Shown here piece by piece: positions 11,587 through 57,270 of a DNA stretch of 64,000 bases. Below the pieces are notes generated by a model, which did no database searches, had not been told where the DNA came from, and worked only from the letters and a program-made list of their open reading frames with translations. The stretch's first letter is position 1, and the number at the start of each line of letters is the position of its first letter. The position numbers and the translations under genes were made by a program. The stretch comes from Leadbettera azotonutricia ZAS-9 (GTDB lineage: Bacteria; Spirochaetota; Spirochaetia; Treponematales; Breznakiellaceae), in NCBI RefSeq assembly GCF_000214355.1, contig NC_015577.1:992001-1056000 (forward strand). The letters are read 5' to 3'.

Positions 11587-12599
11587 CAGCTTTCCTTTCC
11601 CGGACCGGCAATTCCAAGATTGAGAAAAACTTTAGGAGCCCCTGCCGATGCCCAGAGGCCTAGCAGGCAGTAGCGTATAAAGCGGCCAAGTTCGGTGTAG
11701 GGCGAACCCAGACCCCAAAAAGAAATCGAAGCAAACAACGAATTTTCTCCCGGGAGTATAAGGCGGAGGCCCAGGTAAATTACGGCAGCCCCCGAAAGTC
11801 CAAGTATATAGCGGGCAGTCAGCAAAAATATGCCGGGTTTTTTCCCTTTTACCAAGCCCTGGGCAGTGAAAGGGAAAGAATTGATCATAAGGCTGTACCC
11901 TGCGCCAAAACCCAGGAACAGGGCAGGGAGGCTTGTATCCATAGGATAGAGGCCGTTCATAATCAGCGCTATCGCGGCGGTGCAGATCATTTGGGTCCGC
12001 TTACCCCTCATAATGAACCATGCGCCGAGCCAGGGGCTCGCCATGTAAAAAGCTGTCAGTATAATGCCACCGATGATCCAGCCGCCCAAAATATCTGTAG
12101 GGAAATGCACCCCCAGGTAGAGCCTGCTGAATGCAATGAGGAGCATGAGTATGATCGCGCTAATCCAAATGGCCAGCCTTGATTCTTTTTTCCTGCTTCC
12201 GGCCCAGGACATAATGGGAACCCAGAGGCACAGGCTGTTTTGTGCATGCCCCGAGGGGAAACCATAGCTGGATTCAAGGGCCATGCCTACAGACGGGTCA
12301 AGGTTGTACGGCCTTGGCTGCTTAAACAGGTGCTTGAATATTGTATTTGTCCAGGCGGAAAAAATGATGAGCATCCCCAGCCTGAACCCCCGTTTTTCAT
12401 CTATGCACCAGTAGACGAGCAGCAGAAAGGGGATGACAAAAGCTTCTGAACCTATGGTGGTGATGATCTTAAGAAATACGGTAAGAAAGGGGTTTGCCGC
12501 AGTTTGAATTGCCTCTATTAAATTGAGTCCCCAGAGGTAAACCGATGTCAGAAAAGGCAGGTTCTCTGCAGGCATGATTTGGATAATTTCACTGTTCAT
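11586..12599 (-). CDS. PAP2-superfamily membrane phosphatase
   Basis: A 337-residue integral membrane protein with about eight hydrophobic segments. The three phosphatase signature blocks are complete: K89-x6-R96-P97, PSGH at 115-118, and S158-R159-x5-H165-x3-D169, so the catalytic His pair and phosphate-binding residues are all present. Family members dephosphorylate undecaprenyl pyrophosphate, phosphatidate or related lipids. The extra C-terminal membrane segments make it larger than the simple PAP2 core of about 200 residues. It lies directly upstream of mnmE (1-base overlap) and 9 bases downstream of a lipoprotein gene. The exact lipid substrate cannot be seen. Confidence 0.9.
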   Translation of the reverse strand: MNSEIIQIMPAENLPFLTSVYLWGLNLIEAIQTAANPFLTVFLKIITTIGSEAFVIPFLLLVYWCIDEKRGFRLGMLIIFSAWTNTIFKHLFKQPRPYNLDPSVGMALESSYGFPSGHAQNSLCLWVPIMSWAGSRKKESRLAIWISAIILMLLIAFSRLYLGVHFPTDILGGWIIGGIILTAFYMASPWLGAWFIMRGKRTQMICTAAIALIMNGLYPMDTSLPALFLGFGAGYSLMINSFPFTAQGLVKGKKPGIFLLTARYILGLSGAAVIYLGLRLILPGENSLFASISFWGLGSPYTELGRFIRYCLLGLWASAGAPKVFLNLGIAGPGKES

Positions 12600-36726: not shown

Positions 36727-37940
36727 TTAGAGGGCTTTGACAGCCTTTGCCAATTCCCTGCCCCGTTGTTCCAGCAATGCCAGATCGTCTTCTCCGGGGT
36801 ATCCTGCCCATTCAACCGATTCCAGGCTTTCCCAGCGGAGGGGAGCGATGGCGGCTTCGTATTCCTTCCTGGCGCCGCCTACCCATCCCCATGAACCTAT
36901 GCGCAGCACTTTTTTATTGAAGATATGCTTGCGCCGTAAAATATCGATTGCATAGGCCATGGGCGGGAACATGGCATATTCGTAGGTGGGCATGGCCAAA
37001 ACCAGAGCGCTCGCCTTATAAGCGTCGGAGAGTACATATGAAACATTCTCGTCAGGCACCCGTCTTATGGAATAGGGAACCCCCTCGGCTTCAATGCCCT
37101 TGATGACTGCATCCAGCCCCGCCCTGGTATTGCCGTACATGGAACCCCATACAATGGCGATTTCCTTTTCGGCAACACCCTTGGCATAGGACGCATACCG
37201 TGCATAGCGCTCGATAATGGCCTTGGGGTTTTTGCGCCACACAAGACCGTGGCTTGGGGCAACGCAGCGTATGTCCAGGCCCGAAAGTTTTTGAATCGCC
37301 TTGTCTACAAAGCCTGAAAAAGACGAAACAATGTTGGCGTAATAGCGCAGGCTTTCTTCTTCAAAAAAGGCATGCGCTTTGGCATCATATTCATCGTCAA
37401 AAACCTTTTCCCCCAGGCTGCCGAAAGAGCCGAAGGCATCGCAGGAAAAGAGCGTCCCGGATGCGGCATCAAAGGTTACCATGGTCTCAGGCCAGTGCAC
37501 ATTGGGAGTCTCGTAGAAGCTGAGGGTTTTGCCGCCCCCAAGGTCAAGGGTGTCCCCATCCTTGACCTCTCTGAGGCTTGTATCAATCTTATAGAAGGAT
37601 TTAACCAGGGCAATGCCTTTGGCAGTGGAAATTATTTCGGCCTTTGGGGCTTTTGCCCGGAATTCCCTGAGCCAACCGGTATGATCCGGCTCAAGATGGT
37701 TCAAAATGAGGTAATCGACATCGGAAAAGGACATCCCTATGGAGGAAAGGGCTTTTTCAGCCTGATCCGCCGCCCCTGTCCAGTCCCGAAGGAGGTCTAT
37801 GAGGGCTGTTTTTCACCTTTTACCAGGTAAGAATTGAGAGAAACCCCCTCGGGTATGGGCCAAATGCCTTCAAAAAGGTCCGTAGTCTGAATATCCGCAT
37901 GGATACAGTAGATATAATCGGCGATACTTCGAGCTTTCAT
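36727..37940 (-). pseudogene. A-type flavoprotein (FprA/ROO), broken by one missing base
   Basis: A di-iron flavoprotein of about 404 residues that reduces O2 to water (or NO) in anaerobes. The metallo-beta-lactamase half carries the iron-site blocks NHLEPDHTG, NVHWPET, SCDAFG and APSHGLVW, and the flavodoxin half has WGSMYGNTR and LAMPTYEYAMFPPM. The natural start is the ATG at 37940 (MKARSIADYIYC, ribosome site AGAGGATCC). The frame breaks in a run of five A's (plus-strand T's at 37809-37813): frame 0 reads GEKQPS-stop, and the other frame continues TALIDLLRDW. One extra A, or a -1 slip on AAA, gives GEKTALIDLL, the family sequence. Could be a sequencing error, a real mutation or productive slippage. 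Confidence 0.85.
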
Positions 37941-56407: not shown

Positions 56408-56429
56408 AGGCTGAAAAAGCATAACCCTA

Positions 56430-57270
56430 TGAAAAACGCTGCTGGTGAAGATGCAAACAAAATAGCCGGTATTCTTGAGGAAGTCAGGCGGGAACTGCCG
56501 CCTGCTGAACTGAAACAGGGGCGGATTTTGATTTTCTTATTCTGGACAAGGCGCAGAAGATCAAAAACTATGAAACCAAAACCGCATCGGCGATTAAGCG
56601 CCTAAAGACAAAACACAAGCTGGTTATTACCGGGACGCCTATAGAAAACCGCTTAATTGATATTTATTCGATCATCAATACCATAGACCCCTATTATCTT
56701 GGACCTCTTTGGGAATTTTCCTGGCAGCATTGCCTTTTTGATCCCCTAAAGACGAATAAGATTGCCGGGTACTATGATCTGCAAAAGCTGAATACGTCCC
56801 TTGCGGGCTTATTGATCCGCCGCGAAAAGAGCGATGTCCTGAGTCAGCTTCCCATGATTCAGCAGCAGGATGTGCCTGTTGAACTTTCCCCGCTGCAAAA
56901 GGAACTGCACGCCGGTTTTATGAAAGGCATTGCGAAGCTCATCAGCAAGCGGTTCCTGACGCCTTATGACCTGCAGCGTTTAAACTTGCTTTTGGCCAGT
57001 GCCCGTATGGTGTGCGATTCGAGTTATTTAATTGATGATAAAACCCACGATTCCCCAAAGCTGATTGAGCTTGAGGATATTTTGTTTGAAAAACTTGATA
57101 TTACCCATAATTCCCGTAAAGTCATCATTTTTTCCGAATGGATAAAGGTGCATAAAATAATCGGGCAGATGCTGCGGAAACATAAAACAGGTTTTGCCGA
57201 ACTGAACGGCAAAGTCCCGGTTAAATTCCGGGGCGACCTGATCAAGCATTTTGAGAATGACCCCAATTAA
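56430..57270 (+). pseudogene. SNF2-family helicase relic
   Basis: A decayed gene. A start-like segment (MKNAAGEDANKIAGILEEV) shifts frame near 56519 into LILDKAQKIKNYETKTASAI, where motif II reads DKAQ instead of DEAQ/DEAH; VITGTPIENR (motif III) and later the C-terminal helicase part (KVIIFSEWIKVHKII) follow, and the frame ends at 57270 before motifs V and VI. The large N-terminal half with the P-loop is absent. The region looks more AT-rich than its neighbours, consistent with foreign origin. From 57271 to about 57370 I see no gene. Confidence 0.85.

Follow-up and report, generated by a model that had tools for sequence, protein, structure and literature searches.

The frame break in an fprA-like flavodiiron gene of Leadbettera azotonutricia ZAS-9: signs of a sequencing slip or a very recent mutation, not of a built-in switch

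We analyzed a 64,000-nucleotide stretch (the window) of the Leadbettera azotonutricia ZAS-9 genome, a single contig of 3,855,671 bases in which the window occupies positions 992001 to 1056000, and found that its fprA-like gene is divided between two reading frames at a run of five A's. The evidence favors a sequencing slip or a mutation of very recent origin over a built-in switch, which makes the break an ordinary one. A base-call or assembly error, with the gene intact in the cell, is the most likely cause, a judgment we hold with moderate confidence.

The gene lies on the minus strand. Its upstream piece (37797..37940) runs from an ATG at 37938-37940, with a Shine-Dalgarno (SD)-like AGAGGA just 5′ of it, through MKARSIADYIYC...SLNSYLVKGEKQPS to a premature TAG at 37797-37799 and comprises 47 codons. 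The downstream piece (36727..37812) occupies the −1 frame. A TGA at 37813-37815 blocks this frame, which beyond it reads KTALIDLLRDW... and stays open as far as 36730, giving 361 codons plus the stop codon; the piece's own first ATG is at 37734. Since only 13 bases separate the TAG from the TGA, the frame switch must fall in fewer than 20 bases, as the preliminary description had stated, and the A5 run at 37809-37813 is the only A run between the two stops that is able to join both frames. A frame-aware coding HMM trained on the genome itself and blind to homology placed the frameshift at 37809, and the observation of a frame break therefore stands.

Judged by its sequence, the gene is an ordinary class-A flavodiiron protein gene of the FprA/ROO type. 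Proteins of this type join a diiron metallo-beta-lactamase domain to a flavodoxin and reduce O2 to water or NO to N2O, and O2 or NO reductase activity is predicted for the window protein from its family membership. The downstream piece contains the metallo-beta-lactamase-like diiron domain, with 64.3 bits to Pfam ODP (cut-off, 27.2) and 34.1 bits to Pfam Lactamase_B (cut-off, 22.7). It also contains the C-terminal flavodoxin domain, to which the alignments with NCBIfam flavorubredoxin models and PDB flavodiiron chains extend (to at least residue 355); FMN_red alone was below the Pfam cut-off, and the NCBIfam flavorubredoxin equivalogs matched the piece but scored below their curated cut-offs. 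The likeness to class-A flavodiiron proteins (FprA, ROO, and the flavorubredoxin core; PDB 6etb, 1ycf, 2ohh, and 1e5d) covers both the lactamase and the flavodoxin domains, with E values from 8e-56 to 6e-32 for these four structures. Unlike these proteins, the deposited window gene is split after codon 47, and the one continuous frame of about 400 codons expected of the class is interrupted at 37809-37813.

Of 145 sampled genomes of the family, 119 contained a match to the downstream piece, as did 33 of the 36 better-assembled ones; these counts include more distant flavodiiron homologues at about 31 to 41% identity. For the junction itself, we examined the best 29 relatives' loci from the family search and 80 loci kept from a named genome collection, two overlapping sets whose 109 loci represent 85 distinct proteins. 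Relatives with names are termite-gut and other spirochaetes, including Breznakiella homolactica. Both halves of the gene share one frame, from the N terminus through the junction, in all 109 related loci, and among these loci, the break is unique to the window gene. Together with the HMM call, this result makes the frame break more than a chance layout of open reading frames (ORFs) and bears out the earlier claim that the gene is broken in the A5 run and that the −1 frame restores the family sequence. The preliminary description had further read GEKTALIDLL across the junction as exactly what the family has here; the −1 frame does resume the family sequence, but "exactly" is too strong, because the residue after the junction lysine is T in 40 and I in another 40 of the 85 distinct relatives. 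The comparison of A-run lengths that had been proposed showed six or seven A's at the lysine codon in 44 of the 85 distinct relatives, versus five in the window, and the simplest description of the break would be the loss of one base from this run.

The rest of the gene is in good condition. The window protein departs from the family at 1 of 131 near-invariant columns (median among relatives, 1; maximum, 5), and its end branch in a maximum-likelihood tree is 0.14, versus 0.25 for both its sister and the next row. These two measures led us to reject pseudogene decay of the fprA-like gene. The low number of departures, along with the alignment of the downstream piece to solved flavodiiron proteins, also agrees with the earlier statement that the iron-site and flavin blocks are intact. 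Because the remainder of the gene is without decay, the break is either young or not real.

The preliminary description had offered sequencing error, fresh mutation, a phase-variation-like switch, and programmed slippage as causes; the first two fit everything that we found, and the last two gain no support from the evidence given with each below. Under the error explanation, the deposited sequence would be one base short in the A run near the 5′ end of the gene, and full-length FprA would be made normally in the cell without recoding. We infer an error rather than a real mutation because the one-base difference sits in a homopolymer that is longer in about half of the distinct relatives (the 44 of 85 with A6 or A7), because every related locus is unbroken and the window gene has no other damage, and because two other single-base breaks occur in otherwise conserved genes within 864 kb of this genome. 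Moreover, excerpts of the GeneTack survey state the expectation that homology-validated singletons are sequencing errors and not genuine indels (PMC3711429). The window gene resembles the singleton frameshifted genes described in those excerpts in being validated by homology, confined to one genome, due to a single base, and without stimulators found (PMC3711429). Against an error stands the fact that a genuine new mutation would leave the same trace in the sequence. The two additional breaks could likewise be real mutations, and the one in a BadF-type activase gene has the look of a base gained next to an A run, not of a homopolymer loss. A base missing through error would concern annotation only: the gene would not be a pseudogene, and the organism would not lack a flavodiiron protein. 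We found no report of this fprA frame break in the literature searched on the organism, on homopolymer frameshifts, and on flavodiiron frameshifts.

It is a serious possibility, although we think it somewhat unlikely, that the sequenced strain truly lost one base very recently and with it the function of its sole flavodiiron protein. Such a deletion could, for example, have been fixed in laboratory culture under anoxia; the 47-amino-acid product would be useless, and a product reinitiated at the ATG at 37734 would be missing roughly its 68 N-terminal residues. A runs commonly lose a base by mutation, the undamaged remainder of the gene is what a young null would show, and two rubrerythrin-family proteins encoded in the genome could maintain part of the oxidative defence. 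However, a search of this genome found no second flavodiiron gene, and since the piece has a match in nearly all of the high-quality family genomes (the 33 of 36 given above, distant homologues included), the loss of fprA would be unusual and a fitness cost would be expected outside the laboratory. Nor did this genome yield a match to the desulfoferrodoxin family (superoxide reductase) that might stand in. If the break is real, the strain that was sequenced no longer has the one flavodiiron O2/NO reductase that its genome was found to encode, a loss that would bear on oxygen-tolerance work with it.

Phase variation, in which the length of a polymorphic A run would flip in the population and turn the gene on or off, is very unlikely. 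Exactly one A separates the window from many relatives, as such a switch would have it, but the gene is in the on state in 109 of 109 related loci and the run lacks the length of an unstable repeat. At A5 to A6, it falls short of the homopolymer of at least 7 nt that the GeneTack authors, in the excerpts cited, took as the criterion for phase variation (PMC3711429). A/T runs of at least 5 are also commonplace in coding sequence, with 1,488 eligible runs in 464 kb of this genome.

Still less probable is the production of full-length FprA from the broken frame by programmed −1 ribosomal frameshifting or RNA polymerase slippage. The tRNA-Lys could re-pair from AAA to AAA one base back within the narrow switch window, a likeness to the −1 frameshifting of dnaX and IS3-family transposases, where an A run permits the same re-pairing; unlike those cases, the window site is without a heptamer, structure, or conservation. 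An SD-like AGGUGA is present just upstream of the site, but it abuts the A run, whereas an SD that stimulates −1 frameshifting usually lies 10 to 14 nt upstream. We found no unusual downstream stimulatory structure in four stretches around the site, with z-scores of −0.12, 0.25, 1.16, and 0.46 when folded without pseudoknots. A shift is needed in none of the 109 related loci, so there is no conserved shift site in homologues. The sequence GGT GAA AAA CAG offers neither an X_XXZ_ZZN heptamer nor an efficient tetramer but only T_GAA_AAA and A_AA.A. In excerpts of a study in E. coli, A_AA.A ranks last of six shifty tetramers tested with a pseudoknot, the six spanning 0.26% to 5.6%, and shifty tetramers without a pseudoknot are barely or not shifty (PMC4066793). 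Transcriptional realignment, according to the GeneTack excerpts, usually involves runs of at least 8 or combinations of two shorter runs (PMC3711429). Finally, 77 of the 390 long ORFs in our sample contain GAA_AAA_C in frame, 91 times in all, where codon use predicts 58; the genome therefore does not avoid this string in intact genes. We rejected programmed slippage on four grounds: conservation, folding, motif class, and how often the string appears in intact genes. A newly arisen, lineage-specific, low-level frameshift at A5 that would throttle the sole flavodiiron protein of this anaerobic spirochaete and make O2 reduction depend on translational slippage is equally improbable.

The error explanation draws in part on other breaks in the same record, for which we scanned the window and 40 stretches of 20 kb (864 kb in total, about 22% of the genome). 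A simple overlap-gain score was too noisy, with spurious starts on top and the fprA site 73rd (gain, 12.6), and we used the frame-aware HMM instead, which recovered 189 of 262 simulated one-base losses. The first 464 kb gave 23 raw calls, 10 of which, including the fprA site and the call at L130 8673, had both segments of at least 60 bases. The second 400 kb gave 13 calls; five pairs, among them the candidate at L140 5755, were taken to Pfam, and the other 8 were judged by eye. By HMM and homology, two further single-base frame breaks were confirmed in the 864 kb. The first (L124:4550, G000:C1 near 2444550) is in a gene for a BadF/BadG-type CoA-dehydratase activase of about 1,500 amino acids, whose last roughly 190 residues are in another frame; the tail piece was matched in 25 of 38 other genomes, and nearly all of the top matches lie within a single long frame. 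This break looks like one extra base beside an A6 run. Relatives put the change just after the run, which led us to reject a loss within it and not to count this gene as a homopolymer case. The second (L142:17580, G000:C1 near 757580) is a one-base break in a gene for an MFS_2 sugar transporter, the two pieces of which align one after the other to a single Pfam model; the HMM boundary lies by an A8 run, and by comparison with relatives the change falls immediately 3′ of that run, in A-rich sequence.

The two further cases in 864 kb make one-base breaks part of the background in this record, which we flag as holding other such breaks, and they fit a general level of sequencing errors or recent mutations rather than a peculiarity of fprA. 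Extrapolated roughly from three cases, with fprA itself the starting point and several HMM calls undecided, and in view of the recovery in simulation, the whole record may hold about 15 to 20 single-base breaks.

Most of the other HMM calls that we classified were not taken as frame breaks. The call at L122 5356 spans two different genes (a BrnA antitoxin and UPF0175), those at L150 1214 and L156 fall between different genes by Pfam, and those at L117, L122 15914, L126, and window position 11593 appeared by eye to be overlapping genes. The L128 call, which has no family in its first part and then DUF3842, is undecided to ordinary. At L140:2271 (G000:C1 near 382271), the frame may change downstream of a Na+/H+ exchanger domain, and the second piece is without a Pfam match. 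Within the window, the HMM call at 56512 falls in a remnant of an SNF2-type helicase gene (56408-57270, plus strand), where a 253-codon open stretch matches the SNF2-related domain. This remnant corresponds to part 697-925 of a family of about 1,000 residues, with no full-length gene around it, and is probably a pseudogene.
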